A stretch of 64,000 nucleotides of DNA, taken from Ramlibacter rhizophilus. GTDB lineage: Bacteria; Pseudomonadota; Gammaproteobacteria; Burkholderiales; Burkholderiaceae_C. Position 1 is the first letter of the stretch, and each line of letters opens with the position of its first letter. The notes below the pieces were generated by a model, which was given only the letters and a program-made list of their open reading frames with translations, had not been told where the DNA came from and did not search any database. The translations under genes and the position numbers were made by a program. Where the stretch lies: assembly GCF_004681965.1 (NCBI RefSeq), contig NZ_SMLL01000003.1:186001-250000 (forward strand), given 5' to 3'. Below, piece after piece: positions 10,870-44,583 of this stretch.

Positions 10870-12516
10870 TTGAGCCGGGCCGCGCTCTGGCAGCGTGTGC
10901 GCGCGGCTGGCGCCAGCCGTGCGGCCCTGGTGCTGGCCGCCTGCCTGCTGCTCACCGCGCTGGCGACCCTGCTGGCGGTGCAGGTGGTACGCGAACGCGC
11001 GGACGCGGTGGCGCAGGCCGCGGTGGACCAGGAAATCGCAGGGCTGGACCGCCGCGTCGCCGCCTACCTGGCGCTGCTGCGGGCCACCCGCGCCTTTGTG
11101 GAGGCGCAGGGCGAGGCCCTAAACGCCGATGAGTTCAAGCGTTTCGTCGCCGGCCTGCGCATCCCGAGCGACTACCCCGGCATCCAGGGCATCGGCTGGA
11201 GCCCGCGCCTGGCGCCCGGCACCGAGCGCTACACCATTCTCTTCCTGGAACCACTGGACGAGCGCAACCGCGCCGCGCTGGGTTTCGACATGCATTCGGA
11301 GCCCGTGCGCGCCGCCGCCATGGACCGTGCCCGCGACCTGGGCGAGGCGGCGATGAGCGGCGTGGTGCTGCTCAAGCAGGAGATCCTGCCGGACCTCTCG
11401 CCGGGCTTTCTCATCTACGAGCCCGTCTATGCCGGTCGGGACGTGCCCGAGAGCGTCTCGCAGCGGCGCGCGCGCCTGCGCGGCTTTGTCTATGCGCCGT
11501 TTCGGGGCACGGACTTCTTCAACGGCCTGTTCCGCTCGCCCGAGGTCGAGCTGCTCGCCATCCACACGGCGACGGCCGAGAGCGACCGGCCGGGCGGCTT
11601 TCTGCGCGGCGACCCGGCCGTGCCCCTTCCCGAGGCGGCCATCCGGCGGCGCGTGAACGTCGCGGGCCAGCCCTGGGTGCTCGTCTTCGAGCGCAGCGTC
11701 GGTCCGCCCCTGGCCGAGCGGGTCATGGTCCTGGCGGTGTTCGTGCTCGGCGTGCTGGTCAGCGGCCTCCTGGCAGCACTCACGCGGCACCAGACGCGCG
11801 CCCGGCACCGGGCCGAGAAGCGCAGCAGCGAGATGCGCCAGCGCCTGCAGTTCTCCGAGCTGCTGGTGGGCATCGTCTCGCACGACCTCCGCAACCCGCT
11901 GAACGTCATCCAGCTCAACACCGCGCTGCTCTCCCAGGCGGAACTGCCCGAAAACTTCGCGCGTTGCGTCAGGCGCATCCAGGCCAGCGGCGAGCAGAGC
12001 CTGCGCATGATCCGCGACCTGCTGGACTTCACCCAGGCGCGCCTGGCCGGCGGCATTCCCGTGGTGCGCGCACCGGGGGACGTGGCCGGCATCGTGCAGC
12101 AGGCGGTGGATCAGGTGCGGGTGGCGCACCCCGGGCGCGAGGTGGCCTTCTCGGCCCAGGGCAGCGGCACCGGCACCTGGGACGCGGACCGCATCGCGCA
12201 GGTGGTCTCCAACCTCGTGAGCAACGCCATCGTCTACGGCGACGCGAACGCGCCCATCCGCGTGGCGGTGGACGGCACCGGCCAGCGGGTGCGCCTGTCG
12301 GTGCACAACCTGGGCGAGCCGATCCGGCCGGAGTTGATGGGGACGCTCTTCGAGCCGCTGCGGCAGGGGTCCAGCGTGGGGGCGCGCGGCCGCAACATCG
12401 GCCTGGGCCTGTACATCGTCCAGCAGATCGCGCGCGCCCACGGCGGCCGCGTGCACTGCAGCTCGTCGCGCGAGGCGGGCACGCTGTTCACGGTGGAATT
12501 GCCGCGCACGAGCTGA
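10870..12516 (+). CDS. CHASE-domain sensor histidine kinase
   Basis: This is a membrane sensor kinase of 548 residues. A first TM helix (about residues 15-37) and a second (about 284-306) flank a periplasmic CHASE domain containing the YPGIQGIGWSPR and FVYAPFRGTDFFNG blocks. A HisKA domain follows with phospho-acceptor His338 (GIVSHDLRNPLN), then an HATPase_c domain with N-box VVSNLVSNAI, and a GLGLYIVQQIARAHGG G-box. The start is a TTG with a strong GGGAGG Shine-Dalgarno about 10 bases upstream. No response regulator is adjacent, so it is an orphan kinase. The CHASE ligand is unknown. Confidence 0.9.
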   Translation: MSRAALWQRVRAAGASRAALVLAACLLLTALATLLAVQVVRERADAVAQAAVDQEIAGLDRRVAAYLALLRATRAFVEAQGEALNADEFKRFVAGLRIPSDYPGIQGIGWSPRLAPGTERYTILFLEPLDERNRAALGFDMHSEPVRAAAMDRARDLGEAAMSGVVLLKQEILPDLSPGFLIYEPVYAGRDVPESVSQRRARLRGFVYAPFRGTDFFNGLFRSPEVELLAIHTATAESDRPGGFLRGDPAVPLPEAAIRRRVNVAGQPWVLVFERSVGPPLAERVMVLAVFVLGVLVSGLLAALTRHQTRARHRAEKRSSEMRQRLQFSELLVGIVSHDLRNPLNVIQLNTALLSQAELPENFARCVRRIQASGEQSLRMIRDLLDFTQARLAGGIPVVRAPGDVAGIVQQAVDQVRVAHPGREVAFSAQGSGTGTWDADRIAQVVSNLVSNAIVYGDANAPIRVAVDGTGQRVRLSVHNLGEPIRPELMGTLFEPLRQGSSVGARGRNIGLGLYIVQQIARAHGGRVHCSSSREAGTLFTVELPRTS

Positions 12517-14171: not shown

Positions 14172-14819
14172 TCAGGGGACCAGCAAGCCCTTGCGCTCGA
14201 TGAACCCCACGACCTCCTCCACCCCCACCGAGGTCTTGAGGTTGGTCATCACGAAGGGCTTGCCGCGCCGCATGCGCTCGGTGTCGGCCTGCATCACCGA
14301 CAGGTCCGCGCCCACGTGGGGCGCGAGGTCGGTCTTGTTGATGACGAAGAGGTCGCTCTTGGTGATGCCGGGGCCGCCCTTGCGGGGGATCTTTTCGCCG
14401 GCGGCCACGTCGATGACGTAGACGGTGAGGTCGCTCAGCTCGGGGCTGAAGGTGGCCGCGAGGTTGTCGCCGCCGGACTCGACGAAGACGATGTCGGCAT
14501 CCGGGAACTGCTCCAGCATGCGGTCGATGGCTTCGAGGTTGATGGAGGCGTCCTCGCGGATGGCGGTATGCGGGCAGCCGCCGGTCTCCACGCCCATGAT
14601 GCGTTCGGCGGGCAGCGCGCCGCTGACGGTGAGCAGGCGCTGGTCTTCCTTGGTGTAGATGTCGTTGGTGATGGCCACCAGGTCCCAGCGCCCGCGCATG
14701 CGCTTGCACAGCATCTCCAGCAGGGTGGTCTTGCCGGAGCCGACCGGCCCGCCGATGCCCACGCGCAGGGGGGGCAGGCGCTTGGTGCGGCCGGGAATGT
14801 GGTGCAGGAGGGCGCTCAT
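14172..14819 (-). CDS. ureG: Urease accessory GTPase UreG
   Basis: UreG is the SIMIBI GTPase that drives nickel delivery to apo-urease. The 215-residue product has the P-loop [13 protein letters not shown] (near residues 20-32), the CPH metal-binding motif (within [11 protein letters not shown]), [26 protein letters not shown] and the [13 protein letters not shown] guanine-recognition segment. All are characteristic of UreG. The ATG overlaps the ureF stop (ATGA on the minus strand). It is the last gene of the ureA-ureG operon. Confidence 0.97.
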
Positions 14820-15502
14820 GATCGGAACAGGCGTGAGTACTGGTGTTCGTGCCGGGCCGAGAGGATGGCCAGCATGGGGGAAAAAGCCTGGCGGTCCCCG
14901 TCGCCGAGCGCCAGGGCCGTGTCCACGGCCTGCGGGATCTCGCGCGCCAGGCGCGCGAGGATGCGCTGCCCCGCGGCCTGGCCCAAAGGCACGGACTTGA
15001 TGGCCGCCTGCACCATGTTCTCGGCCCAGCCGAAGGCGAAGGCCAGCAGCAGCGGCCGCTCCCCCACGGGCTGGGACGCGGCGGCCACGGCGAAGGCGAC
15101 GGGGTAGGTCAGGGGACCCGGTGGCAGCGCGGGTGCGGCGCCGAGCGACTTGAGCCACTCGATGAGCGAACGGCCCATCTGCTCGCTCTGCTGGCGCAGC
15201 TCCGCGCTCTCGCGCGTGCGCCGCACCCAGGTGTCCAGGGCCTGCAGCCGCTCCAGGTCGCCGCCGCGCCAGGCGCGCAGGGCGGGGGCCAGCACCGCCA
15301 GGTCGGCACGGGCCAGCGTGAGCCGCAGCTGCTGCGACAACCACTCGCCGGCGCTGGCCGCGTCGTGCACCAGCTCCGCCTCCACCGCGGCCTCCAGCCC
15401 TTCGGAGTAGGAGAAGCCCCCCACCGGCAGGGCGGGCGAAGCCAGCCACATCAGCTGCAGCAGGCCGGCGTCGTGCTCGGCCTCAGCGGTGGGGGTGCTC
15501 AT
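14816..15502 (-). CDS. ureF: Urease accessory protein UreF
   Basis: UreF is a GTPase-gating helper in the UreD-UreF-UreG complex for urease metallocentre assembly. It has 228 residues, is all-helical, and has the family N-terminus [21 protein letters not shown] and the C-terminal region with [11 protein letters not shown]. The chosen ATG (15502) gives the normal length; longer frames upstream run through ureE's His-rich tail in another frame. It overlaps ureE by 20 bases and ureG by 4. Confidence 0.95.
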
Positions 15503-16070
15503 GGGGCGGGTGGTCGTGCTCGTGCGGCTCGCCCTCGTTGGCGTGCTCGTGCCAGCCGGTGTGCGAGTGTTCGTGGGCGCTGCCCGGGTCCGGACCGTGG
15601 CGATGCGCGTGGCCGTGTCCGCCGTAGGCGCCGCCTTCGGGCTCGAAGGGCGCATCGGTCGCGCGCACCGTGAGGTGCATGGCGCGCAGCATGTCGGCCA
15701 GCACGTGGTCGGGTTCGATCTTGAGGTGGTCGGGCTGCAGTTCGAGGGCGACGTGCCGGTTGCCCAGGTGGTAGGCCGCGCGGGTGAGGTCGAAGGCGTT
15801 GCCGTGCTCGGCGCAGGCGGTGATCACCAGCACGGGCTGGGGCGCGGCGATGACGCGAACGAGCGAGCCGTCCTCGGCCACCAGCACGTCGCCGCCGCGC
15901 AGCAGGGTGCCGCGCGGAAGGAACACGCCCAGGGTACGGCCCAGCGAGTCGGTGCACTCGAAGCGGCTTTTCTGCCGCCGGTCCCAGTCCAGTTCCACGG
16001 TGGCGGCGCGCCGCAGCAGCGCGGGCGCCAGGCCCTGGCCGCCGGGAAGGCGCTTGTTGGCGATCAGCAT
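15483..16070 (-). CDS. ureE: Urease accessory nickel metallochaperone UreE with a His-rich tail
   Basis: UreE delivers nickel to the urease activation complex. The 195-residue protein has the N-terminal peptide-binding domain ([19 protein letters not shown]), the central metal-binding domain with [13 protein letters not shown] and the conserved [13 protein letters not shown] block, and a C-terminal tail with about 15 histidines in roughly 45 residues, many as HEH or HxH. The tail is longer than in many orthologues and should bind several nickel ions. It begins 7 bases after the ureC stop. Confidence 0.96.
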
Positions 16071-16077
16071 GGAAAGT

Positions 16078-17796
<1,719 letters not shown>

Positions 17797-17797
17797 G

Positions 17798-18103
17798 TCA
17801 GAGCTTCCCTTGCACCAGGCCGCGGAAGCCGCAGGCCACCCGCGCGCCGGCATAGTCGATCAGTTCCACCGTGCGCTGCTGCCCGGGCTCGAAGCGCACG
17901 GCCGTGCCCGAGGCGATGTTCAGTCGCATGCCGCGCGCCGCGTCGCGGTCGAAGTGCAAGGAAGCGTTGGTCTCGGCGAAGTGGTAGTGCGAGCCGACCT
18001 GGATAGGGCGGTCCGCGGTGTTGCGCACGACCACCGTGAGCGTGCGCCGCCCCGGGTTGAGTTCGAGTTCGCCGTCCAGCGGCAGCAGTTCGCCCGGGAT
18101 CAT
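17798..18103 (-). CDS. ureB: Urease subunit beta UreB
   Basis: This structural subunit of urease has 101 residues, with the family start [16 protein letters not shown] and the conserved [17 protein letters not shown] and [10 protein letters not shown] blocks. Its ATG overlaps the stop of a small membrane-protein gene (18100-18282) by 4 bases, so the two are translationally coupled. It ends one base before ureC. Confidence 0.97.
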
Positions 18104-18282
18104 TTCCTGCCGCCGAACCAGTACCAGACCGCCAGCGCACCCAGGCCGCCCACCAGCAGCAGGCCAACCGCGTCGGTCGGATGCCAATGGGCCAGGCCGG
18201 GGAGCCCGTGCCCTTCGTGGGCCGAGGCGGTGGTGGCAAGGAAGGCGAGGGCGGTCGCGGGCAGGCGGTGCAGGGATGGCAT
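18100..18282 (-). CDS. Small secreted/membrane protein encoded between ureA and ureB
   Basis: This 60-residue protein has a signal-peptide-like N-terminus ([15 protein letters not shown]), a short His-rich segment ([14 protein letters not shown]) and one C-terminal TM helix ([18 protein letters not shown]) ending in a basic GGRK. The GAGAGGAG Shine-Dalgarno upstream of its ATG and the ATGA overlap with ureB argue strongly that it is translated. The His cluster just outside the membrane suggests nickel or other metal handling, by analogy with the AHEGHG-type start of HupE/UreJ proteins, but this is inference. I know of no assigned function. Confidence 0.75.
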
Positions 18283-18298
18283 GGGGGCTCCTCTCTGT

Positions 18299-18601
<303 letters not shown>

Positions 18602-18676
18602 GGAGCCGCATTGTTGCAAGCCCTGTGCCCGCGCGCGAGGGGCCATCCCTGGCCCGGAAGTTGCACCCTGCCGGCC

Positions 18677-21600
18677 GTGAGCGAGACCGTGGTCCCCATC
18701 CATCCTGCCCTCGACGACGCGCCCCAGCGCGTGGTCAAGGTCCGCCGCGACTACAACCGGTGGGTGGCCAGCGAGACGCTGGAGGACTATGCCCTGCGCT
18801 ACACCCCCCGGCGCTTTCGCAAGTGGTCCGAGGCCCGGGTGGCCAACACGGCTTTCGGCGCCGCCTCCTTCCTCATCCTGGAGGCCGTGGGCGCGACGCT
18901 GCTGGTGCAGTACGGCTTCGTCAATGCCTTCTGGGCCATCCTCGCGACCGGGCTCATCATCTTCCTGGCGGGGCTGCCGATCAGTATCTATGCCGCGCGC
19001 CATGGGGTGGACATGGACCTGCTCACGCGGGGCGCGGGCTTCGGCTACATCGGATCGACCCTCACCTCCCTCATCTACGCGTCCTTCACCTTCATCTTCT
19101 TCGCGCTCGAAGCGGCGGTGATGGCCTATGCGCTGGAACTGGCCCTGGACATCCCGCCTTCCTGGGGCTACCTCGTGTGCGCGCTGGTGGTCATCCCGCT
19201 GGTGACCCACGGCATTTCGGCCATCAGCCGGCTGCAGGTATGGACGCAGCCGCTCTGGCTCGTGATGCTGGTGGTGCCCTTCGTCTTCGTGTGGCTGCGC
19301 GATCCTGGTGCATTCGTGGGCGTCGTGCACTACGGCGGTGAGAAGGGGCGCCCGGGCGAGTTCGACCTGCACCTGTTTGGTGCCGCCCTGACGGTCGGCA
19401 TCGCCCTCATCACCCAGATGGGGGAGCAGGCCGACTACCTGCGCTTCATGCCGGCGCGTGGCCCGGCCAACCGCGTGCGCTGGTGGGCGGGCGTGCTGGC
19501 CGGCGGCCCGGGCTGGGTGGTGCTGGGCGTGCTGAAGATGCTGGGCGGCGCGCTCCTGGCCTGGCTGGCGATCAGCCACATGGTCCCGGTCGACAGGGCG
19601 GTCGATCCCAACCAGATGTACCTGGCCGCCTACGAGTACGTCTTCCCGCACTACGGCTGGGCGGTCGCGGCCACCGCGCTCTTCGTGGTGGTCTCGCAGC
19701 TGAAGATCAACGTCACCAACGCCTACGCGGGCTCGCTGGCCTGGTCCAACTTCTTCTCGCGCGTGACGCACAGCCACCCGGGCCGCGTGGTCTGGGTGGT
19801 GTTCAACGTGAGCATCGCCTTCCTGCTGATGGAGATGAACGTGTTCCAGGCGCTGGGCGAGGTGCTGGGGCTGTATTCCAACATCGCCATCGCCTGGTTC
19901 ATGGCGGTGGTGGCGGACCTCGTCATCAACAAGCCCCTGGGCCTGTCGCCGCGCGGCATCGAGTTCAAGCGCGCCCACCTGTGGGACGTCAATCCGGTGG
20001 GCGTGGGGGCCATGGGCCTGGCCTCGGCCGCGTCCATCGCTGCCTGGCTCGGCCTCTTCGGCGCCGGGGCGCAGGCCTTCTCCGCGCTCATCGCGCTCGC
20101 GGTGGCCCTGATGGCGTCGCCCCTCATCGCCTGGGGCACGCGCGGGCGCTACTACCTCGCACGGCCGGCGAACGAGGCGGGCGACCAGGCCGCGCTGCGC
20201 CGCTGCGTGGTCTGCGAGCGCGAGTACGAGTCGCCGGACATGGCGCACTGCCCGGCCTACCAGGGCAGCATCTGTTCCCTCTGCTGCACGCTGGACGCGC
20301 GCTGCGGCGATGCCTGCAAGCCGCAGGCGAGCCTGGCGGCGCAGTGGCGCGCCACGCTGCGCTGGCTGCTGCCGCGCCGCGCCTGGCCCTTTCTCGATGC
20401 GGGCCTGGGTCACTTCGTGCTGCTGATGCTGCTGATCGTGCCCTTGCTGGCGGCGGTGTTCGGCCTCCTGTACCGGCAGGAGCTGGCCGCGCTGGAACTG
20501 GCGGGCGAGGCCGCCCCGCTGCTGCAGGCCACGCTGGCGGCCGGCTTCGCCAAGGCCTGGGTGGCTTTGGTGGTGGTGTCCGGCATCGTGGCCTGGTGGG
20601 GCGTGCTCGCGCACAAGACCCGGCAGGTGGCGCAGGAGGAATCCAACCGCCAGACGCACCTGCTCATGCAGGAGATCGAGTCGCACCGCCAGACCGACCA
20701 GGCCCTGCAGCAGGCGCGCCTGGTCGCCGAAGAGGCGCAGCACGCGGCCGAACAGGCCAACCAGGCCAAGAGCCGCTACATCAGCGCCGTGAGCCACGAG
20801 CTGCGCACGCCCCTCAACAGCATCCTGGGCTACGCCCAGCTCATGGGCGAGGACGCGCAGATCCCTGCGCATCGCAAGCAGGCGGTGAACGTGATCCGCC
20901 GCGGCGGCGAGCACCTGCTCTCGCTCATCGAAGGCACGCTGGACATCGCCCGCATCGAGGCCGGCAAGCTGCGGCTGGAGGTGGCGCCCATGCGCTTTGC
21001 CGATTGCGTGCACGAAGTGGCGGGCCTGTTCGAGCTGCAGGCCGCGGGCAAGGGCCTGGCCTTCCGCTTCGTGGCCGAAGGCGAGCTGCCCGAGGTGGTG
21101 CGCGCCGACGAGAAGCGCCTGCGGCAGATCCTCATCAACCTGCTGGGCAACGCGATCAAGTTCACGGCCGAAGGCGGCGTGACCTTCCGCGTGCGCCATT
21201 CGCGCGAGATGGCGCAGATCGAGATCGAGGACAGCGGTCCGGGCATGACGGCCGCGGAGCTGGCCGAAGTCTTCGAGCCTTTCGCGCGGGGCGCCAGCGC
21301 CGCGCCGTCCTCCGGCGCCGGGTTGGGCCTGACCATCGCCAAAATGCTCACCGGCCTCATGGGCGGTGAGCTCACCGCGCGCAGCACGCCGGGGCAGGGC
21401 AGCGTCTTCCGGGTGCGCCTGTTCCTGCCGGCCGTGCATGGCGTGGCACTCCCGGCGGCCGTACCGGAGACGCGGCGTGGCTACGAGGGCCCCTGCCGGC
21501 GCATCCTGGTCGTTGACAACGAGGAGGCCGACCGCGACCTCATCGTCCAGCGACTCGCGCCCCTGGGCTTCGAGCTGCGCAGCGCCGCGAGTGGCCACGA

Positions 21601-22102
21601 CGCGCTGGACCTGCTGGCGGCAGGCTTCGCACCCGATGCCATCTTCCTGGACCTGGCCATGCCCGGCATCGACGGCTGGGAGACCCTGCGGCGGCTGCGG
21701 CGCATGCCGGGTCCGCAGGCGGCCGTGGCCATCGTCTCGGCCAATGCCTTCGACCAGGGCCTGGACAACGGCCTGGGCATCACGGCCGCCGACTTCCTGC
21801 TCAAGCCCGTGCGCCTGCCGCAGCTGCTCGACTGGCTGGAGCAGCGCCTGCACCTGCGCTGGTGCAGCGAGCCGCCCGCGCAGGCCGAGCCGCCCGCGAG
21901 CGAGGCGCCGGTCCCCGACGCGCAGCTGCTGTCCGGCCTGCGCGAGCTGGTGCAACTGGGTTATGTGCGCGGCATCCTCAACCGCCTGCGCGAGATCGAG
22001 GCGGCCCATTCCGCCAGCGCCGCCTGGTGCGCGCAGATGGCCGAGCTGGCGCGGCGCTTCGAGTTCGAGGCCATGGCCCGGCGCCTGGAGCCCTCCGCAT
22101 GA
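18677..22102 (+). CDS. NCS1 transporter-histidine kinase-receiver fusion (putative nucleobase/ureide sensor)
   Basis: This 1141-residue protein begins with a full NCS1 nucleobase-cation-symport domain (about residues 20-490, roughly 12 TM segments, with blocks such as [20 protein letters not shown] and [20 protein letters not shown]). A cysteine-rich insert (about 509-546, eight Cys) and two extra TM helices (about 572-600 and 625-648) follow, then a coiled linker, a HisKA domain with His707 ([13 protein letters not shown]), an HATPase_c domain ([22 protein letters not shown]) and a receiver domain with Asp992 ([12 protein letters not shown]). The layout resembles CbrA-type transporter-kinases, but with an NCS1 rather than an SSS module. 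It diverges from ureA and overlaps the response regulator gene by 4 bases. It probably senses or imports a purine, pyrimidine, hydantoin or ureide. The start is GTG 18677. Confidence 0.88.
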
Positions 22103-23085
22103 ACGCGCCCCCGCCCAGCATCGACCAGGCCCTGGACCGCGACCGCGCCGAGGTGGTCCTCATCGTGGACGACGTGCCCGACAACCTGGCCATGCTGCAC
22201 GACGCGCTGGACGAAAGCGGCTACACCGTGCTGGTCGCCACCAGCGGCGAAGCCGCCCTGCAGCGCGCCGCCCAGGCCCTGCCGGACGTGGTGCTGCTGG
22301 ACGCCATGATGCCGGGCCTGGACGGCTTCGAGGTGGCGCGGCGGCTGAAGGCGCAGCCGTCCACCGCGCACATTCCCATCCTGTTCATGACCGGCCTCAC
22401 CGAGACCGAGCACCTGGTCGCGGCGCTGGCGGCCGGCGGGGTGGACTACGTCACCAAGCCGATCAAGCCCAAGGAGGTACTGGCCCGCATGGCCGTGCAC
22501 CTGCGCGGCGCGCGCCTGGCCCGCCAGACGCGCAACGCGCTGGACGCCTTCGGCTACGCGAGCATCACCGTGCGCGCGAGCGACGGCCGCCTCATGTGGC
22601 AGACCCCGCTGGCGCGCGACCTGCTGCAGGCCTGGTACGGCACGGACATGGCCCGCCGCCCCAACCACGCCCCGCCCGCCGTGGTGGACTGGCTGCGCCG
22701 CGCGCTGCCGGACGCCGCCCGCCAGCTCGAACCCGCGCGCCTCTCGGCCGAAGCCGGCGCCCGGCGCCTCACCTTCCGCCTGCACCGCCAGACCGGCGAC
22801 GACGAGGGCGGCAGCGAGTGGCTGATCGTGATGCGCGAGGAGTCGGACGCGGCCGTGATCGAATCGCTCAGCCTGTCTTTCAAGCTCACCGCGCGCGAGG
22901 CCGAGGTGCTGTACTGGGTGGCCCAGGGCAAGATCAACCGCGACATCGCGGAGGTGGTGGGCGCCAGCCCCGCGACGGTGAAGAAGCACCTGGAGCGGGT
23001 GTACGCCAAGCTGGGGGTGGAGACGCGCACGGCGGCGGCGGCGATGGCGATGGGGAGGATGCGAGGGGGCGCTGCGGCGGCATGA
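22099..23085 (+). CDS. LuxR-family response regulator
   Basis: This 328-residue regulator has an N-terminal receiver domain (IVDDVPDN acidic pocket, phospho-acceptor Asp68 in [17 protein letters not shown] lysine), a middle segment of about 110 residues that looks PAS-like ([20 protein letters not shown]), and a C-terminal LuxR/GerE helix-turn-helix ([20 protein letters not shown], ending [13 protein letters not shown]). It overlaps the NCS1-kinase by ATGA and is its obvious partner. Candidate targets are the adjacent urease and urea-transport operons, but no binding site can be defined from one window. Confidence 0.92.
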
Positions 23086-23180: not shown

Positions 23181-25112
23181 ATGTCGTCCACCCCAGCCGG
23201 CTTTTCGCCCCACGCCTCCTCTCTTGAGCGTCAACGGCGCCGGGGCCACCCCTACATCTCACTCACTGAGCGGCGGTACGACCTGCCCGAGCCCGACTCC
23301 AAGCCGAGCTTCGGCGCCAGGGCTGTGGCTATGTTCAGGTCGGGTCCAGAAGCGAGAGCGATCAGAGACCTGAGCCGCAGGTACGAACACGCGCTTCAGG
23401 TGAGCCGCAACGGCCGCGTGCGAGACCTGACCGACCTGCGTGCGACGCTCAGGGCCTTGTATCAGCGCGAGCCCGCAGAAGTCATCGGGCAACTCAAGGG
23501 CGTTCCAGGGACTTCCCGGGCGTGCGAGTTCCTGCGCTTGTCGGATCGCGCCGTGCAGGCGTATCCCAACGCGAAGTTCAGGGACGGCGCTCAGGCCCTG
23601 GACACGGCGCTCGCCCAGCTCTACGCCCTTGATCAGGAGACGCTTCGCAAGCACAGTGAGCGTGCCTCGCTCGAGTTGACGGGCAGCCACGCCCAGATTG
23701 AGAGTCTTGAACGTGGTGCCGTGGTTCGGGCAGCGCTCGGTGCCGCAACTCGGCCACAGCGCTTGGTCGTCACGCCGGAAATGGCGCAGGCCATTCCGAA
23801 GAAGAGGCTGAATTCGCTTTCCGAAATCACGGACGCTGCCGCTGAGGTGGTTCGAACGGGCGGCTTGGCTCCGCGCGAAGGCACGCCAGGTCGCGCGCCC
23901 GTGCGCCCCGACGACCTCAAGGCGCAGTCGGCAGAAGTGGCCGCGTTCAAGGCCCGCGTTCAAGAAGGCCTGGACGGCGCAAGCAACAACCCCAGGTTCG
24001 ACTTCGCTGAATTGCTTTGTCCGGAAGTGGACATGCGACACGAAGCCTCGACGCTCAGTGGTGTGCGCATGTGGCTGTACAGAGTCCGCGCAACCCTGCA
24101 GGCCAGCTTCACGGGGATTCGCTCGGACGAGACCAACACGCTCCAAGCACGATTGCTGGGTAATGGCATGCACGACGAGCGCGTACGAGAACTGCTCGCC
24201 CAGGATCCGGACAAGCTCACGCTGGCGCGGTGTTCGAACTTGAGTCTCTGCGCCAGCTCACTGCAGCCCGTGCTCGATGCGGCCAACGGCGCTGCGGCCA
24301 ATCGTTACGCTGAACTGACCCGGACAGGTGATCCCGTGCCGCTGGCCGATGTAGCCAACTTTGCGCGCGTCCGCCTGGGTCTTGGCTTGAAGGCGGAGGG
24401 CCGGGTGGAACCGGACACATCTGCAGCTGTCACTCTGCGCAAGAGGGCGGCGCTGGCTCTGCATCGTCACCTTGAGAAGCTCAAGTCCGACGCGGAGGGC
24501 GGCATCGCTCAGTCGGCGATCGACGAGTGCGTCGTGAGCTCACTGTCGGAAGTGCTCGGGAATCCGGACCGCTCGGCCGAGGGGCACGCTGGCGCCGCGC
24601 ACGCATCCGCGGGCGAAGGTGGACCGGCATCCGGCAATCACGATGCGGCATCTGATGAACGCAGCGCGGAACCACCCCCGCAAGCCAGCCCGCAAGCTGC
24701 GTCTCCGAATGCCACGCCAGTTGTAGCCACGAAAAGGGTGTCACGTCCACCGAAAGACCTGGGAAACCATCTCGATGCTGCGAGTCGGCTGCTCAGTCCC
24801 CTTGCAGCAGGCTTTGACGTGCCCTCTGAAAACATTGAACCTGCACGCGGTCACTTGGAAAGCGCGGCTGCCCTGATCGACACGTCCTCTCAGGGCGCGC
24901 CGTGGATCTCAGGCGCCAAGCGCAGGCTCGACTATCTTGAAAAGCGCATCGCTGCGGCGGGCTCTCCTGAGCGCGGTCCGTCGGCACAGTCCCGCCGCCT
25001 CGCCGTACAACAGTCACCCTCCTTCGAAGGCCCCCCTGAGGCAGCACCTCAGCCCGCTCAGCACAGCTTCTCTCAAGCCACCGCCGCCCGAGCGGCGTCG
25101 TCCGCCAAATGA
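23181..25112 (+). CDS. Unrecognised 643-residue helical protein, effector-like
   Basis: I do not recognise this protein. It has a Ser/Pro-rich N-terminus without signal peptide or TM helix, a mostly helical body (residues about 60-430), a disordered Pro/Ser/Ala-rich linker (about 475-520) and a short helical end (about 530-580) before a Gln/Ser/Ala tail. Base composition and codon choice are visibly less GC-biased than in the flanking sensor and urt genes, which suggests transfer. It stands alone between the two-component system and urtA. The architecture recalls type III secretion effectors, but no hrp/PIP-type promoter element was found upstream, and no secretion genes are in view. Confidence 0.7.
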   Translation: MSSTPAGFSPHASSLERQRRRGHPYISLTERRYDLPEPDSKPSFGARAVAMFRSGPEARAIRDLSRRYEHALQVSRNGRVRDLTDLRATLRALYQREPAEVIGQLKGVPGTSRACEFLRLSDRAVQAYPNAKFRDGAQALDTALAQLYALDQETLRKHSERASLELTGSHAQIESLERGAVVRAALGAATRPQRLVVTPEMAQAIPKKRLNSLSEITDAAAEVVRTGGLAPREGTPGRAPVRPDDLKAQSAEVAAFKARVQEGLDGASNNPRFDFAELLCPEVDMRHEASTLSGVRMWLYRVRATLQASFTGIRSDETNTLQARLLGNGMHDERVRELLAQDPDKLTLARCSNLSLCASSLQPVLDAANGAAANRYAELTRTGDPVPLADVANFARVRLGLGLKAEGRVEPDTSAAVTLRKRAALALHRHLEKLKSDAEGGIAQSAIDECVVSSLSEVLGNPDRSAEGHAGAAHASAGEGGPASGNHDAASDERSAEPPPQASPQAASPNATPVVATKRVSRPPKDLGNHLDAASRLLSPLAAGFDVPSENIEPARGHLESAAALIDTSSQGAPWISGAKRRLDYLEKRIAAAGSPERGPSAQSRRLAVQQSPSFEGPPEAAPQPAQHSFSQATAARAASSAK

Positions 25113-25156: not shown

Positions 25157-25187
25157 CCGGCCATACGCCACCCGGCGTATTGGCCGG
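25157..25187. repeat. Inverted repeat upstream of urtA
   Basis: CCGGCCATACGCC and GGCGTATTGGCCGG form a 13-bp stem with one bulged base around a short ACCC loop. It lies about 95 bases before urtA and 45 bases after the preceding stop. No T-run follows, so it may be an operator or an mRNA leader hairpin for urtA rather than a terminator. Confidence 0.5.
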
Positions 25188-25280: not shown

Positions 25281-26558
25281 ATGCAACGTCGTTTCACCCT
25301 CCAGGCGATTGCCGCCGCCGCCGCGCTGTCCGCGCTCGCCTCGCCCGCCGCCTTGGCCCAGTCGGGCAATACCATCAAGGTCGGCATCCTCCACAGCCTC
25401 TCGGGCACCATGGCGATTTCCGAGACCGTGCTCAAGGACACGGCGCTCATGGCCATCGAGGAGATCAACGCCAAGGGCGGCGTGCTGGGCAGGAAGCTCG
25501 AGCCCGTGGTGGTGGACCCGGCGTCCAACTGGCCGCTCTTCGCGGAGAAGACCCGCCAGCTCATGACGCAGGACAAGGTGGCCGCCATCTTCGGCTGCTG
25601 GACCAGCGTGTCGCGCAAGTCCGTGCTGCCGGTGGTGGAGGAACTCAACGGCCTGCTGTTCTACCCCGTGCAGTACGAGGGCGAGGAGCTGTCCAAGAAC
25701 GTGTTCTACACCGGTGCGGCGCCCAACCAGCAGGCCATTCCCGCGGTGGAATACCTCATGTCCAAGGACGGCGGCGGCGCCAAGCGCTTCGTGCTCCTGG
25801 GCACCGACTACGTCTATCCGCGCACCACCAACAAGATCCTGCGCGCCTTCCTGAAAAGCAAGGGCGTGAAGGACTCGGACATCGACGAGAAGTACACCCC
25901 CTTCGGCCACAGCGACTACCAGACCATCGTCGCCGACATCAAGAAGTTCTCGGCCGGCGGCAAGACGGCGGTGATCTCCACCATCAACGGCGACTCCAAC
26001 GTGCCCTTCTACAAGGAGCTTGGCAACGCGGGCCTGAAGGCCAAGGACGTGCCGGTGGTGGCCTTCTCCGTGGGCGAGGAGGAGCTGCGCGGCGTGGACA
26101 CCAAGCCGCTGGTGGGCCACCTGGCCGCCTGGAACTACTTCATGTCGGTGAAGAACCCGGCCAATGACGAGTTCACCAAGAAGTGGGCCGCCTATGCCAA
26201 GGCCAAGAACATCGCCGGCCACAAGGACAAGCCGCTGACCAACGACCCCATGGAGGCCACCTACATCGGCATCTACATGTGGAAGCAGGCGGTGGAGAAG
26301 GCCAAGAGCACGGACGTGGACAAGGTCATCGCGGCCATGGGCGGCCAGACCTTCAAGGCGCCCTCGGGCTTCACGGCCAAGATGGACGAGAAGAACCACC
26401 ACCTGCACAAGCCGGTGTTCATCGGCGAGGTGCGTGCCGACGGGCAGTTCAACGTGGTGTGGAAGACGCCCGGGCCGGTGAAGGCCAAGCCCTGGTCGCC
26501 TTACATCGAGGGCAACGACAAGAAGAAGGACGAGCCGGACGGCAAATCGAAGGTCTGA
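25281..26558 (+). CDS. urtA: Urea ABC transporter substrate-binding protein UrtA
   Basis: This 425-residue periplasmic protein has a signal peptide (AIAAAAALSALASPAALAQ) followed by the type I binding-protein fold of the UrtA/AmiC family. The family blocks KVGILHSLSGTMAISE, FGCWTSVSRKSVLPVVEE, FYPVQYEGEE and SNVPFYKE, together with the gene order urtABCDE, identify urea as the likely ligand (short-chain amides are alternatives). The ATG at 25281 is chosen because AGGAG lies 8 bases upstream; an in-frame GTG at 25272 is less likely. Urt systems are typically nitrogen-regulated, though no NtrC/sigma-54 site is visible here. Confidence 0.96.
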   Translation: MQRRFTLQAIAAAAALSALASPAALAQSGNTIKVGILHSLSGTMAISETVLKDTALMAIEEINAKGGVLGRKLEPVVVDPASNWPLFAEKTRQLMTQDKVAAIFGCWTSVSRKSVLPVVEELNGLLFYPVQYEGEELSKNVFYTGAAPNQQAIPAVEYLMSKDGGGAKRFVLLGTDYVYPRTTNKILRAFLKSKGVKDSDIDEKYTPFGHSDYQTIVADIKKFSAGGKTAVISTINGDSNVPFYKELGNAGLKAKDVPVVAFSVGEEELRGVDTKPLVGHLAAWNYFMSVKNPANDEFTKKWAAYAKAKNIAGHKDKPLTNDPMEATYIGIYMWKQAVEKAKSTDVDKVIAAMGGQTFKAPSGFTAKMDEKNHHLHKPVFIGEVRADGQFNVVWKTPGPVKAKPWSPYIEGNDKKKDEPDGKSKV

Positions 26559-26565
26559 TGTGTGT

Positions 26566-26672
26566 CCCTCCTTCCCCCTCTGGGGGAAGGCCGGGATGGG
26601 GGCTGGCGTGCCGGTGATGTGACCGGCGCACGCGGCCCCCACCCCAACCCTCCCCCAGAGGGGGAGGGGGTT
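26566..26672. repeat. MITE-like double-hairpin repeat (family R1), urtA-urtB gap
   Basis: Two GC-rich hairpins (TTCCCCCTCTGGGGGAA at the left, CTCCCCCAGAGGGGGAG at the right) enclose complementary arms GGGATGGGGGC and GCCCCCACCCC, so the whole ~105-bp unit is one long imperfect palindrome. It fills the urtA-urtB gap. Confidence 0.85.
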
Positions 26673-26686
26673 TCGCGACCTTTCCC

Positions 26687-28264
26687 ATGATCAAGAACCT
26701 TCTTTCCGCGCTGTTCTGCGTCCTGCTCGCGGCCTCGGCCCACGCGCTCACGGCCGATGAAGCCCTCGGCATCGCCACGGGCGACACCGACGCGCGCATC
26801 GAAGCCGTGGGCAAGGCCGTCGCGCAGCCGGATGCAAAGACCGCCGAGTTCCTGCAGGCCCTGGCCGAGGACCGCGTGAAGACCGCCGGCGGCAAGGTCT
26901 TCGTCGTGCAGGGCGAGAAAGCCATCGATCCCGTCACCGGCGCGGCGGCCTCGCTGCCTTCCGATGCCGAGGACGTCATCAGCAACAACCGCATGCGCGG
27001 CGAGATCGACACCGCGCTCGCCGCCATCCGCCTTTTCTCCCCCGACGCTTCGCAGCGCGCGCAGGCCGTGCGGGCGCTGGCCGGCGAGCCCGACGAGGCG
27101 CGCCTGCCGATGATCGAGAAGGCGCTGCAGGCCGAGACCGATGGCGCCATCCGCCAGCAGCTCGAACTCGCGCGTGCCGCCATCCTCCTGGCCAGCGAGG
27201 ACCCCGCCAAGCGCCTGGCCGCCGCGCGCGCGCTCGCCGACAGCCGCAGCCCCGCGACCCGCACCCTGCTGGTGGAGAAACTCGCGAGCGAACCCGACCG
27301 CGCCGTTCAGGCGGCCATGCGCGCGGCGCTGCGCAGCGTGGAGTCGTCCCTCGCCTGGGCCGAGCGCGCGGGGCAGGTCTTTTCCGGCATCAGTCTGGGC
27401 TCCATCCTGCTGCTGGTGGCCCTGGGCCTGGCCATCACCTACGGCCTCATGGGCGTCATCAACATGGCGCACGGCGAGCTGATGATGATCGGCGCCTACG
27501 CCACCTACGTCGTGCAGGGCCTGTTCCAGCGGTACCTGCCCGCGGAGGTCTTCGGCTGGTACCTGGTCGCGGCCGTGCCCGTGGCCTTCGGCGCCTCGGC
27601 GCTGATGGGGGCCATCCTGGAGCGGGGCGTGATCCGCTACCTCTACGGCCGCCCGCTGGAGACCCTGCTGGCCACCTGGGGCATCAGCCTCATGCTGATG
27701 CAGCTGGTGCGCAGCGTGTTCGGCGCGCAGAACGTGGGCGTGGAGAACCCGAGCTGGATGAGTGGCGGCGTGGTGGTGCTGGGCAGCCTGCAGCTGCCGT
27801 GGAACCGCATCGTGATCATCGGCTTCGCCGCCGCGGTGCTGGCAGGCATGGCCTTCCTGATCGCGCGCACGCGGCTGGGCCTCTTCGTGCGCGGCGTGAC
27901 GCAGAACCGCTCCATCGCCTCGTGCATGGGGGTGAACACCGCGCGCACCGACACCCTGGCCTTCGCGCTGGGCTCGGGTATCGCGGGCCTGGCGGGCTGT
28001 GCGCTCAGCCAGGTCGGCAACGTGGGGCCGGACCTGGGGCAGGCCTACATCGTCGATGCCTTCATGGTGGTGGTGCTGGGCGGCGTGGGCCAGCTCGCGG
28101 GCACGGTGTATGCCGCCCTCGGCCTGGGCATCCTCAACAAGTTCCTGGAGGGGTGGGCGGGCGCGGTGCTGGCCAAGATCGCGGTGCTGGTGTTCATCGT
28201 GGTGTTCATCCAGAAGCGGCCGCAGGGTCTGTTCGCGGTCAAGGGCCGGAGTGCGGAGGCATGA
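26687..28264 (+). CDS. urtB: Urea ABC transporter permease UrtB
   Basis: This 525-residue inner-membrane permease is of the branched-chain-amino-acid (LivH) type with the long N-terminal extracytoplasmic region special to UrtB. A signal-like start (LSALFCVLLAASAHA) and a helical repeat domain (about residues 20-220) precede about eight TM segments with AITYGLMGVINMAHGELMM and ARTRLGLFVRGVTQNRSIAS. It starts 15 bases after the repeat element and overlaps urtC by 4 bases. Confidence 0.95.
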   Translation: MIKNLLSALFCVLLAASAHALTADEALGIATGDTDARIEAVGKAVAQPDAKTAEFLQALAEDRVKTAGGKVFVVQGEKAIDPVTGAAASLPSDAEDVISNNRMRGEIDTALAAIRLFSPDASQRAQAVRALAGEPDEARLPMIEKALQAETDGAIRQQLELARAAILLASEDPAKRLAAARALADSRSPATRTLLVEKLASEPDRAVQAAMRAALRSVESSLAWAERAGQVFSGISLGSILLLVALGLAITYGLMGVINMAHGELMMIGAYATYVVQGLFQRYLPAEVFGWYLVAAVPVAFGASALMGAILERGVIRYLYGRPLETLLATWGISLMLMQLVRSVFGAQNVGVENPSWMSGGVVVLGSLQLPWNRIVIIGFAAAVLAGMAFLIARTRLGLFVRGVTQNRSIASCMGVNTARTDTLAFALGSGIAGLAGCALSQVGNVGPDLGQAYIVDAFMVVVLGGVGQLAGTVYAALGLGILNKFLEGWAGAVLAKIAVLVFIVVFIQKRPQGLFAVKGRSAEA

Positions 28265-29472
28265 CGATGAACGCGATCGTGGTGAATGACAACATTCCCT
28301 CCCCCTCTGGGGGAGGGCAGGGTGGGGGCTCGCGCGTGGAGGGGCAGCCGGCGGTTGTAGCGCGCGCGGCCCCCACCCCGACCCTCCCCCAGGGGGGGAG
28401 GGGGCTTCTGTCGCGGACGGGGTGGGCGGGGTTCCTGATCGCGCTGGCGCTCGTCTGCGGCGTCGCACCGCTGCTCAATCTGGTGGTGCCCGAAGGCAGC
28501 GCCTTCCACCTGAGCGACTACGCCGTCTCCCTGGTCGGCAAGATCATGTGCTATGCCATCTGCGCGCTGGCCATGGACCTGATCTGGGGCTACACCGGCA
28601 TCCTGTCCCTCGGCCACGGCCTCTTCTTCGCGCTGGGCGGCTACGTGATGGGCATGTACCTCATGCGCCAGATCGGCCGCGACGGGAATTACCAGAGCGA
28701 GCTGCCCGACTTCATGGTGTTCCTGGACTGGAAGGAGCTGCCCTGGCACTGGGCGCTGAGCGACAGCTTCATCGCCACGCTGGTCCTGGTGGTGGCGGTG
28801 CCGGGGCTGCTGGCCTTCGTGTTCGGCTTCTTCGCCTTCCGCTCGCGCATCAAGGGCGTGTACTTCTCCATCATCACGCAGGCGCTCACCTTCGCCGCCA
28901 TGCTGCTGTTCTTCCGCAACGAGACGGGCTTTGGCGGCAACAACGGCTTCACCGACTTCAAGCGCATCCTGGGTGTCACCATCGCCACGCCGCAGACGCG
29001 CATGGTGCTGTTCGTGCTCACGGGCGTCGTGCTGCTGGCCTTCTTCCTCTTCTCGCGCTGGCTGGTCACGGCCAAGTTCGGGCGCGTGCTGCAGGCGGTG
29101 CGGGACGCGGAGTCGCGCGTCATGTTCTGCGGCTACAACCCGGTGCGCTACAAGCTCACCATCTGGGTCATCTCGGCCATGATGTGCGGCGTGGCCGGCG
29201 CGCTCTACGTGCCGCAGGTGGGCATCATCAACCCCGGCGAGATGAGCCCGGCCAACTCGATCGAGATCGCGGTGTGGACCGCCGTGGGCGGGCGCGCCAC
29301 GCTGGTGGGGCCCATCGTCGGCGCCTTCCTGGTCAACGGGGCCAAGAGCTGGCTCACCGTGACGGCGCCCGAGTTCTGGCTGTACTTCCTCGGCGCGCTC
29401 TTCATCGCGGTGACGCTCTTCATGCCGCAGGGCATCGTGGGCCTGCTGCGCCGCCGCAAGGACGCCCCATGA
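28261..29472 (+). CDS. urtC: Urea ABC transporter permease UrtC with a repeat-encoded N-terminal insertion
   Basis: This 403-residue LivM-type permease carries the blocks YAICALAMDLIWGYTGILSL and FFRNETGFGGNNGFTDFKRI, plus SRVMFCGYNPVRYKL, marking it as UrtC. The first ~48 residues are odd: bases 28297-28404 are a full copy of the R1 repeat (exactly 108 bases) translated in frame as a Gly/Pro-rich segment (IPSPSGGGQGGGS ... PTPTLPQGGRG) just before the first TM helix. The ATG at 28261 overlaps the urtB stop and keeps coupling; a second ATG lies at 28267. No later start with a good RBS is seen, so the insertion is probably translated. Confidence 0.93.
   Translation: MTMNAIVVNDNIPSPSGGGQGGGSRVEGQPAVVARAAPTPTLPQGGRGLLSRTGWAGFLIALALVCGVAPLLNLVVPEGSAFHLSDYAVSLVGKIMCYAICALAMDLIWGYTGILSLGHGLFFALGGYVMGMYLMRQIGRDGNYQSELPDFMVFLDWKELPWHWALSDSFIATLVLVVAVPGLLAFVFGFFAFRSRIKGVYFSIITQALTFAAMLLFFRNETGFGGNNGFTDFKRILGVTIATPQTRMVLFVLTGVVLLAFFLFSRWLVTAKFGRVLQAVRDAESRVMFCGYNPVRYKLTIWVISAMMCGVAGALYVPQVGIINPGEMSPANSIEIAVWTAVGGRATLVGPIVGAFLVNGAKSWLTVTAPEFWLYFLGALFIAVTLFMPQGIVGLLRRRKDAP
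28297..28404. repeat. R1 repeat copy inside the urtC coding region
   Basis: This is the same double-hairpin unit as at 26566 (left hairpin CCCTCCCCCTCTGGGGGAGGG type, right hairpin CCCTCCCCCAGGGGGGGAGGG type, inner arms GGTGGGGGC / GCCCCCACC). Its 108-base length is a multiple of three and contains no stop in the urtC frame. Confidence 0.85.
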
Positions 29473-30320
29473 CCCCGCTGCTGATGGAGCTGGGCGCCGA
29501 GCGCGTGGCCTCGCACACCGAGTCGGGCGGGCGCGCCGCCGGCTGGGGCCGCCCCGCCATCGCCGGCGAGGTGGACCTCACCCACGGGCGCATCCTCTAC
29601 CTGGAAGACGTGAGCGTGAGCTTCGACGGCTTCAAGGCGATCAACAAGCTGTCCCTGGACATCGCGCCCGGCGAGCTGCGCTGCATCATCGGCCCCAATG
29701 GCGCGGGCAAGACCACGATGATGGACATCATCACCGGCAAGACGCGCCCCGACGCCGGCACGGTGTACTTCGGCAGCACCATCGACCTGCTGCGCCACAC
29801 CGAAGCCGAGATCGCGCAGATGGGCATCGGCCGCAAGTTCCAGAAGCCCACGGTCTTCGAGCAGCTCACGGTGTTCGAGAACCTGGAGCTCGCGCTCAAG
29901 ACCGACAAGGGCGTGAAGGCTTCCATGTTCTTTCGCCTGCGCAGCGAGCAGGGCGACCGCCTCGCGCATGTGCTGCACACCATCCACCTCGCCGGCAGCG
30001 AGCACCGGCTGGCCGGCAATCTCAGCCACGGCCAGAAGCAGTGGCTGGAGATCGGCATGCTGCTGATGCAGGACCCCAAGCTGCTGCTGCTGGACGAACC
30101 CGTGGCCGGCATGACGGACGAGGAGACGGTGCGCACCGCCGAACTGTTCCTCACGCTCAAGGGCCAGCATTCGCTGGTGGTGGTGGAGCACGACATGAGC
30201 TTCATCCGCCGCATCTGCGAGGTGGTCACCGTGCTGTGCGACGGCTCCGTGCTGGCGCAGGGAACGCTCGACGAGGTGCAGTCGGACGAGCGGGTGATCG
30301 AGGTGTACCTGGGAAGGTGA
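29469..30320 (+). CDS. urtD: Urea ABC transporter ATP-binding protein UrtD
   Basis: This ABC ATPase of 283 residues is of the LivG type. It has Walker A GPNGAGKTT (near residues 76-84), the urea-transporter-typical signature LSHGQKQWLEIG instead of LSGGQ (near residue 183), Walker B LLLLDEPVAGM and the switch segment VVVEHDMSFI. An N-terminal ~40-residue extension precedes the ATPase fold, as in other UrtD proteins. It overlaps urtC by ATGA. Confidence 0.96.
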   Translation: MTPLLMELGAERVASHTESGGRAAGWGRPAIAGEVDLTHGRILYLEDVSVSFDGFKAINKLSLDIAPGELRCIIGPNGAGKTTMMDIITGKTRPDAGTVYFGSTIDLLRHTEAEIAQMGIGRKFQKPTVFEQLTVFENLELALKTDKGVKASMFFRLRSEQGDRLAHVLHTIHLAGSEHRLAGNLSHGQKQWLEIGMLLMQDPKLLLLDEPVAGMTDEETVRTAELFLTLKGQHSLVVVEHDMSFIRRICEVVTVLCDGSVLAQGTLDEVQSDERVIEVYLGR

Positions 30321-30321
30321 T

Positions 30322-30422
30322 GGCGCGCCGGAAGCCCCCATCCCGGCCTTCCCCCAGAGGGGGAAGGAGCAAGAACCCCCTCCCCCTCTGGGGGAGGGAA
30401 GGGGTGGGGGCCGCGCGCCCAC
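30322..30422. repeat. R1 repeat with its hairpins rearranged, urtD-urtE gap
   Basis: Both R1 hairpins are present, but here the GCCCCCATCCC arm lies outside the left hairpin and the GGGGTGGGGGC arm outside the right one, i.e. the modules are in the opposite order to the copies at 26566 and 53640. It fills the gap between urtD and urtE. Confidence 0.8.
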
Positions 30423-30445
30423 CGCGCTGAAAAGAGAAGAACACC

Positions 30446-31150
30446 ATGCTCACCGTCAAGACCATCGACCAGTACTACGGCGGCTCCCACATCCTGCGCG
30501 GCGTGAGCCTGGACGTGCCGCAAGGCCAGGTCACCGTGCTGCTCGGTCGCAACGGCGTGGGCAAGACCACGCTGCTCAAGACCCTCATGGGCCTGGTGCC
30601 GATCAAGAGCGGCAGCATCGCCTGGCAGGACCGGGAGATCCAGCGCCTGACGCCCTACCAGCGCGCCCGCGCCGGCATCGGCTACGTGCCGCAGGGCCGC
30701 GAGATCTTCGCGCGGCTCACGGTGGCGGAGAACCTGCGCATGGGCCTGGCCAGCCAGCCCGCGTCCACGCCCGTGCCGCCGCAGCTGTTCGAGCTGTTCC
30801 CGGTCCTCAAGCAGATGCTGCACCGGCGCGGCGGCGACCTCTCCGGCGGGCAGCAGCAGCAGCTGGCCATCGCCCGCGCGCTGGCCGCGAAGCCCAGGCT
30901 GCTGATCCTGGACGAACCCACCGAGGGCATCCAGCCCAGCATCATCAAGGACATCGGCCGCGTGATCCGCACACTCGCGAGCGAAGGCCTGGACGGCCAG
31001 CGCATGTCGGTGCTGCTGGTGGAGCAGTACTACGACTTCGCGGAAGAACTGGCCGACCAGTACCTGGTGATGGAGCGCGGCGAGGTGATCGCGCGCGGGC
31101 CGGGCACCGAGATGCAGGCCAAGGGGATCCGGCAGCTGGTGGCGATCTAG
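30446..31150 (+). CDS. urtE: Urea ABC transporter ATP-binding protein UrtE
   Basis: This is the second ABC ATPase of the Urt system, LivF type, 234 residues. Walker A is GRNGVGKTT (near residues 34-42), the signature is LSGGQQQQLAIARAL, Walker B LLILDEPTEGIQPSII, and the switch region VLLVEQYYDFA has Gln in place of His, as is normal for LivF/UrtE. An AAGAGAAGA purine stretch precedes the ATG. The TAG stop overlaps the stop of the convergent cupin gene through a shared CTAG. Confidence 0.96.
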   Translation: MLTVKTIDQYYGGSHILRGVSLDVPQGQVTVLLGRNGVGKTTLLKTLMGLVPIKSGSIAWQDREIQRLTPYQRARAGIGYVPQGREIFARLTVAENLRMGLASQPASTPVPPQLFELFPVLKQMLHRRGGDLSGGQQQQLAIARALAAKPRLLILDEPTEGIQPSIIKDIGRVIRTLASEGLDGQRMSVLLVEQYYDFAEELADQYLVMERGEVIARGPGTEMQAKGIRQLVAI

Positions 31151-31461: not shown

Positions 31462-31616
31462 GGCGGGCGGGTTCCTTGGACTGCGATGGCCGGCATTGTC
31501 GGGCAGGCAGGCTTCAAGTCGGCCGAGGCGGAACTTCAGGCCCCGTCCAGTTCCTACTGCTGAGCTGTCGGTTGGCATCTTGTCAGCCTTTGGCGCCCAG
31601 CAGAAGGAGGTCTCGC

Positions 31617-42039: not shown

Positions 42040-42043
42040 GGTC

Positions 42044-42709: not shown

Positions 42710-42713
42710 GCAC

Positions 42714-42729
42714 GAAGTGTATACACTTC
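42714..42729. promoter_or_regulatory. Probable GntR operator (perfect 16-bp palindrome)
   Basis: GAAGTGTATACACTTC reads the same on both strands and lies between the divergent gntR and uraH genes, 28 bases from the uraH ATG. Short AT-cored palindromes with a GTATAC centre are the usual form of FadR/FCD-subfamily GntR sites. A related sequence precedes puuD at 44584. Confidence 0.75.
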
Positions 42730-42757
42730 TGTCCACCAAACCACCACGGGAGAAGCC

Positions 42758-43111: not shown

Positions 43112-43127
43112 GGACCCCCACCGAACT

Positions 43128-43155
43128 CCGTTCGGGCTGAGCCTGTCGAAGCCCC
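43128..43155. repeat. Dispersed repeat R2, single arm
   Basis: CCGTTCGGGCTGAGCCTGTC followed by GAAGCCCC, just after uraH. The same core occurs as inverted pairs at 50237-50325 (inside iorA) and 57867-57948. This repeat is widespread in Burkholderiales and related genomes. Confidence 0.75.
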
Positions 43156-43167
43156 CGCGCGGTTTCC

Positions 43168-44571: not shown

Positions 44572-44583
44572 GGGCGGGCGCAC

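Follow-up and report, generated by a model that had tools for sequence, protein, structure and literature searches.

The window analysed here is a stretch of 64,000 nucleotides of Ramlibacter rhizophilus (contig NZ_SMLL01000003.1, positions 186,001 to 250,000 of the forward strand), and our subject is a transporter-kinase protein encoded at 18677-22102 (hereafter HK) together with its LuxR-type regulator at 22099-23085 (hereafter RR). HK is read from a single open frame of 1141 amino acids on the forward strand, in which an NCS1-like membrane domain is followed by HisKA, HATPase and receiver domains. An earlier note, made from the sequence of this DNA, had described such a fusion and a LuxR-type regulator of its own overlapping it; both descriptions held, since the frame is open, the kinase, receiver and GerE domains are matched by Pfam, and the ATG of RR at 22099 overlaps the HK stop codon by 4 bp as ATGA. 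The two genes and the parts of HK are as follows.

18677..22102, + strand: HK, hybrid histidine kinase with NCS1-like N-terminus, 1141 amino acids; GTG start, the true start being uncertain
18839..20146, + strand: NCS1-like membrane domain, residues ~55-490; hydrophobic stretches compatible with ~12 transmembrane helices (hydropathy)
20204..20317, + strand: domain with eight cysteines (8-Cys domain), residues 510-547; from the alignment, outside Pfam families
20381..20620, + strand: two extra transmembrane helices, residues ~569-648 (hydropathy)
20765..20965, + strand: HisKA, residues 697-763 (Pfam); phospho-acceptor H707 invariant in 42/42 rows
21107..21427, + strand: HATPase_c, residues 811-917 (Pfam); N821, N825, D852, G854, G880, G882 and G884 invariant in 42/42
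21503..21832, + strand: receiver of HK (Response_reg), residues 943-1052 (Pfam); D992 and K1043 invariant in 42/42
22099..23085, + strand: RR, receiver and LuxR/GerE helix-turn-helix (HTH), 328 amino acids (Pfam Response_reg 96.3 bits, GerE 59.9 bits)

Conservation was assessed in an alignment of 42 rows, the members of which are 45-77% identical to HK of the window. Since every row retains H707, the residues of the N and G boxes, D992 and K1043, the kinase and the receiver are predicted to be active, and with HisKA, HATPase and receiver domains carrying the conserved H, N, G and D residues HK is classed as a hybrid histidine kinase; RR, with a receiver and a LuxR-type HTH found by Pfam, is classed as a regulator of the NarL/FixJ type. 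The NCS1-like domain is strongly conserved as well. The 8-Cys domain is absent from the description in the earlier note, and its cysteines (C510, C513, C525, C533, C536, C537, C543 and C547) are each invariant in 42/42 aligned relatives. We rejected its assignment to a known family, as Pfam gave no family match for this stretch; the best PDB profile match, a splicing factor (E=0.57), was dismissed as chance, and a PDB sequence search of HK matched nothing useful. A search with a 60-residue query from the 8-Cys region in 41 genomes yielded 20 strong matches (E<=6.7e-16), all within open frames of at least 510 amino acids, the weaker matches lying at E>=0.004.

The membrane domain had been assigned to NCS1 and set against CbrA, whose sensor module is of the SSS type. 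Profile-profile comparison of the N-terminus of the HK family gave 97.4% with six PF02133 (NCS1) proteins over 349 columns (single-comparison E 1.3e-11) versus 3.0% with 30 SSS proteins, which upholds the contrast with CbrA and led us to reject SSS/CbrA membership. With subsets of the NCS1 proteins the values were 93.6% for four of the six and 11.8% for the two strongest alone, and comparison with three free-standing remote relatives gave 99.5%. Of these three relatives (~25-27% identity), two match PF02133 at 38.8 and 35.3 bits (L166 and L167) and one has no Pfam match at all (L157). NCS1 and SSS are distant kin themselves, since their profiles compare at 76.5%. PF02133 has no match anywhere in the genome at E<=0.001. 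The Pfam scan of HK also returned no SSF match, so that the SSS domain of the SLC5-STAC kinases is lacking, and no linker family, the presence of a STAC model in that Pfam copy being unchecked. Judged by sequence profiles, the designation 'NCS1-like' is correct as remote homology, yet HK stays under curated cut-offs.

The place of the two genes between the urease genes and urtABCDE was confirmed, the former lying upstream on the opposite strand and the latter downstream. These neighbours and the putative control sites are listed here.

14172..18103, - strand: ureB, ureC, ureE, ureF and ureG, upstream of HK
18299..18601, - strand: ureA, divergent from HK (neighbour comparison)
18615..18630, - strand: sigma-54-like -24/-12 site toward ureA, GGGCACAGGGCTTGCA (motif match)
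18650..18665, + strand: sigma-54-like -24/-12 site toward HK, TGGCCCGGAAGTTGCA (motif match)
25164..25179, + strand: candidate operator of RR, TACGCCACCCGGCGTA; exact match to the pattern given below, 101 bp before the urtA ATG (25281)
25281..31150, + strand: urtABCDE, downstream of RR and its predicted target

Relatives were surveyed at three taxonomic levels. Residues 1-640 as query matched in 85 of 150 genomes of the same family, two of them only through a weak match to a stand-alone permease, which leaves 83 of the kinase type, and in 46 of 250 genomes of the order; a whole-protein profile matched in 32 of 369 genomes of the class at E<=1e-100, only 17 of these having a row that starts within the first 20 profile positions and the rest matching mainly in the kinase part. 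From the 150-genome table, second gene pieces and three weak matches, including two stand-alone permeases, were dropped before clades were counted; in another search of 150 genomes, 112 genomes were kept of 115 after removal of second pieces and of rows below 30 bits. Among 122 loci whose HK is full-length, RR follows directly on the 3' side in 119; one of the others had too little room and two lacked it.

Two main clades were found within the family: clade A (at least 62% identity), which includes the window, and clade B (51-60%). Clade A occupies 73 places in 71 genomes, two genomes being counted twice (G123, in which the gene is split over contigs, and G089, with a full copy and a copy cut by the contig end). 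The earlier note had proposed a survey of whether such fusions co-occur with urea genes, and they do: ureC lies within 8 kb at 63 of the 73 places, always divergent and upstream, and at the ten exceptions it is on another contig (seven) or farther off on the same contig (three). Urease is present in 71/71 clade-A genomes versus 41/79 others, and among the 80 best loci of a second collection 73 have ureA upstream on the opposite strand. Of the 35 clade-B places, 33 have a formamidase gene within 12 kb and 34 are free of urease within 8 kb. A strong fmdA (at least 290 bits, a threshold passed by 34 of 41 genomes) is present in 34 genomes, each of which carries clade B, versus 1 of the 116 others. 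The clade-B neighbours comprise a Peripla_BP_5 protein, Urt-like ABC genes, FmdA, an FmdB-type zinc ribbon protein and a CN_hydrolase, with an AmiS_UreI protein in some loci; these identities come from a Pfam scan of one representative each and, for the ABC genes, from tblastn only. One clade-B relative (L168 in G049) has stop codons inside its frame and is apparently decaying. A third kinase group (L137, L138 and L169-L171), ~40% identical, adjoins a formamidase gene, and four of its five members also have a neighbour of the AmiS/UreI type; its regulator belongs to another family, the one tested (L137) having an EAL domain instead of LuxR.

In a tree of the relatives, made by a quick method (31 open branches, long rows) and used only for label clustering, the fmd labels and the ure labels each fall together, no shuffle out of 500 giving a value as low in either case. 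We compared the transporter domains of 13 urea-type rows (assigned by clade, some without urease in the locus) and 23 formamide-type rows (two of them in tree clade A) and rejected a clade-specific residue set, as a single position passes (276, G to A). The near absence of differences at conserved transporter-domain positions would fit ligands of one class, for example urea and formamide, for both types.

Relatives also occur in 542 plasmid records, of which 342 are from Klebsiella. Fourteen annotated regions were fetched; three turned out to be unannotated and one to hold a stand-alone permease, leaving ten kinase loci in named plasmids of alpha-, beta- and gammaproteobacteria. Genes of the ure, urt or fmd type are divergent and upstream in eight of the ten (Mitsuaria, Burkholderia, Rhizobium, Methylobacterium, Methylovirgula, Klebsiella, Methylosinus and Sinorhizobium); in the last two of these the kinase gene is separated from them by two or three small genes, and in Sinorhizobium meliloti strain ml28 HK and RR are close to urtA on pSymB. 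In the inspected Klebsiella plasmid the kinase is divergent to urtA-E and formamidase genes, and in Thioclava (1/10) the urt genes come after the regulator. The proteins are named 'ATP-binding protein' or generic kinase or regulator in the inspected records, or have no annotated feature. On an Acinetobacter johnsonii plasmid, a free-standing protein of 535 amino acids, 44% identical over 521 residues to the N-terminus of HK, includes the start of the Cys-rich stretch (a shortened Cys tail) and lies directly before ureEFG and ureDABC. This arrangement suggests that the NCS1-like module can work as a permease for a urease substrate. Two short frames of the class search (G677, 617 amino acids, and G693, 562 amino acids) may be of the same free-standing kind.

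A candidate operator emerged as a conspicuous palindrome in the intervals between the clade-B kinase genes and the divergent operons; when symmetry was imposed, the motif search returned TACGTCAATTGACGTA. Sites were scored out of 12 against the pattern TACGYC-N4-GRCGTA. Scores of at least 11/12 were reached in 19 of 29 clade-B intervals (shuffles 0/580) and upstream of urtA in 29 of 31 loci versus 0.19% of shuffles; these 31 loci exclude the window and include some outside clade A and three near-identical S. meliloti records. In the window, 25164-25179 is the sole match to the pattern with at most one mismatch. Presence of the operator follows presence of the kinase: upstream of urtA it is found in 25 of 27 HK-bearing versus 2 of 28 HK-less genomes (Fisher 3.8e-11; hand-picked genomes, kinship uncorrected). 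The HK-bearing set consists of 30 of the 71 clade-A genomes, 27 of which had urtA, and the HK-less set of 40 of 65 non-matching genomes, mostly chosen for urease, 29 of which had urtA and 28 enough upstream DNA. The UrtA proteins of the two sets are similar, with 79-90% (HK-bearing) and 71-89% (HK-less) identity to that of the window. Eight of the 27 HK-bearing genomes have urtA and the kinase gene on separate contigs or 2.5 Mb apart, and seven of these eight still score at least 11. One of the two exceptions among HK-less genomes (G062) has no kinase match but a 50%-identical regulator divergent from ureA; as it keeps both operator and regulator, it serves as a natural test and ties the operator to the regulator.

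Putative promoters were scored with a sigma-54 -24/-12 consensus. In 78 ureA-HK intervals left after removal of similar ones, sites of at least 7/8 point toward the kinase gene in 58 (shuffles 0.5%) and toward ureA in 65 (shuffles 0.3%). In 29 clade-B/urt intervals, 13 have a site of 6/8 on the kinase side (2.9% of shuffles) and 1 on the fmd side. A strong 'motif' between ureA and HK was rejected as a separate element, since it is the sigma-54-like site on the opposite strand.

We consider it likely that HK and RR form a urea/short-amide two-component system that controls urtABCDE (fmd in clade B), with the NCS1 domain acting as sensor and perhaps as transporter, and in this respect the link to urea genes drawn in the earlier note is borne out by the conserved neighbourhoods and by the operator before urtA that tracks the system. 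The domains, the conserved neighbourhoods, the operator with its dependence on the presence of the system, and the promoter-like sites are computed results; the ligand, transport, sign of regulation, phosphotransfer and a role of NtrC, the general control of nitrogen limitation, are inferred. The NCS1-like domain would bind, and possibly transport, urea or a small amide. Its movement would reach the kinase core by way of the 8-Cys domain and the extra pair of helices, and the core would phosphorylate RR. Phosphorylated RR would then bind TACGYC-N4-GRCGTA and activate urtABCDE in clade A or the fmd/urt-like operon in clade B. HK-RR and ureA would be transcribed from the divergent sigma-54-like promoters, such that nitrogen limitation through NtrC sets the amount of sensor, regulator and urease, and the ligand sets uptake.

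Several results weigh against this reading. The strict half of the NCS1 claim failed: PF02133, the domain match on which the earlier note had staked that claim, is absent from HK even at E<=5, and the NCBIfam CodB cytosine permease model matches residues 69-217 at E=8.8e-7 with 28 bits against a cut-off of 326, the kinship found by profile-profile comparison being the half that stood. The Pfam scan of HK found no Hpt domain. In 13 of 79 tree rows there are no urea or formamide genes nearby (an upper bound, owing to short flanks), and the Azospirillum lipoferum plasmid locus (1/10) also has no ure, urt or fmd genes nearby. Of 100 shuffled windows, 14 contain a match to the operator pattern, and the window itself has 6 sigma-54-like sites versus 9.2 expected; as neither is above chance in the window by itself, the weight of both rests on position and conservation. 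Hand-picking and kinship bear on the operator comparison as stated, and the operator of one HK-less genome (G027), whose urtA lies at a contig end, is not accounted for. Operator sites in the ureA-HK intervals score lower (11/12 or more in 32 of 102, never 12; repeats are contained, the window three times and some genomes twice) and therefore do not establish control of urease itself; since these 32 also have an operator-like site, a clean split between the two kinds of control is not established either. A LuxR-type regulator is, moreover, not expected to drive a sigma-54 promoter unaided.

The earlier note had favoured a transceptor for purines, hydantoin or allantoin, in which sensing of a nucleobase-like compound by the NCS1 domain would be linked to ureide and urea breakdown. 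The NCS1 type by profile, the purine genes of the window and the stand-alone relative L157, which adjoins HyuA/HyuB-like proteins (named by eye), speak for it. Five proteins of the purine cluster in the window, however, had no match in 80 clade-A and 60 further loci within flanks of up to 10 kb, and on this ground we rejected the purine link; the operator is located before urtA/fmdC, and sister clade B, which tracks formamidase in 34/34, points to formamide and short amides rather than purines. We regard a purine-type signal as improbable. Similarly improbable in our view is that the NCS1-like domain is a scaffold and that the true input is metal or redox state read by the 8-Cys domain, for instance nickel or iron status for urease: the invariance of the eight cysteines and the nickel requirement of urease would suit such a sensor, but urease is missing from the 8-kb surroundings of 34 of the 35 clade-B places, and the NCS1 domain is itself strongly conserved and occurs alone beside urease with a shortened Cys tail. 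Very unlikely is a plain uptake permease joined to a kinase that reads nitrogen or membrane state, with substrate-specific sensing elsewhere: the sigma-54-like promoters suggest nitrogen control, but the operator co-varies with presence of the system and a fused transporter serves as sensor in Ks-Amt5 (PMC5764959).

Beyond a urea/short-amide two-component system, a more far-reaching view is conceivable, to which we give somewhat less than even credence: a new class of urea/short-amide transceptor, formed by a distinct NCS1 branch that would transport urea when free-standing (Acinetobacter type) and, when fused to the kinase through a metal- or redox-binding 8-Cys gate, would signal urea/amide flux to a regulator and operator of its own, in members spread over the Proteobacteria and also carried on mobile plasmids. 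If true, this class would provide the missing urea sensor for urtABCDE.

Transporter-kinase fusions as such are already known, namely SLC5-STAC and Amt. CbrA and CrbS likewise have a transporter domain fused to a kinase, and CrbS is paired with a LuxR regulator that requires an inverted repeat for activation (PMC5715377; for CbrA, PMC13022988); their domains are SLC5/SSS with a STAC linker, whereas HK has an NCS1-like domain, the 8-Cys domain and two transmembrane helices. Ks-Amt5 resembles HK as a nutrient transporter turned into a kinase-fused sensor of a nitrogen source, and according to a section heading it binds ammonium without translocating it (PMC5764959); its transporter is Amt, not NCS1. 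EupR of Chromohalobacter is a LuxR/NarL-type regulator with a putative transporter-domain kinase, but that kinase is of the SSF type with PAS and the system concerns ectoine uptake, not urea (PMC2964678). The fmdCABDEF genes of Methylophilus methylotrophus, which are induced by formamide and urea, combine amide/urea transport with formamidase as in clade B, but the available portion of the source mentions no kinase (PMC10781810). A Klebsiella 'UTS' cluster (UrtABC/AmiF) has been described in PMC13060141, in the main text of which 'histidine kinase' and 'two-component' are absent; a possibly equivalent Klebsiella plasmid cluster with formamidase and urtA-E has the present kinase divergent to it. 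In an Ectopseudomonas genome paper, a hybrid kinase and a LuxR regulator adjoin urtABCDE and fmdA, with no function given in the part available (PMC13296017). No report on an NCS1-type kinase or a comparable urea-sensing kinase was found among the top-ranked open-licence literature, subscription journals being mostly outside that search.

If HK and RR act as proposed, urea and amide uptake would gain a sensor of its own, a kind of system of which the literature searches made turned up no known case, and a further transporter family would join SLC5 and Amt as kinase input. Proteins that bear only generic names such as 'ATP-binding protein' in the inspected records would obtain a role. As sensor, regulator, 16-bp operator and target operon are all named, the proposal is testable in one strain.

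Further features were noted around the system. ureD was not seen between HK and ureA in the stretch read (18103-18601), and no search for it was made elsewhere; a small HupE/UreJ-like frame, recognized by eye, lies between ureA and ureB. The urt operon is flanked by proteins of 643 and 405 amino acids (23181-25112 and 31476-32693) that lack a Pfam family above cut-off and do not resemble each other meaningfully. A second histidine kinase, with a CHASE domain, is encoded at 10870-12516, 6 kb from HK. The purine genes reported in the earlier note are present at ~38-46 kb, at least 16 kb from HK: a purine-breakdown cluster at 38085-45931 encodes an M20 amidohydrolase, OHCU decarboxylase, a polysaccharide-deacetylase (PuuE-like, named by position), a GntR regulator and a urate oxidase whose C-terminus weakly matches cytochrome c. 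At 47444-51456, adjoining frames contain POR, DUF6537 and TPP-enzyme domains and resemble an indolepyruvate ferredoxin oxidoreductase.

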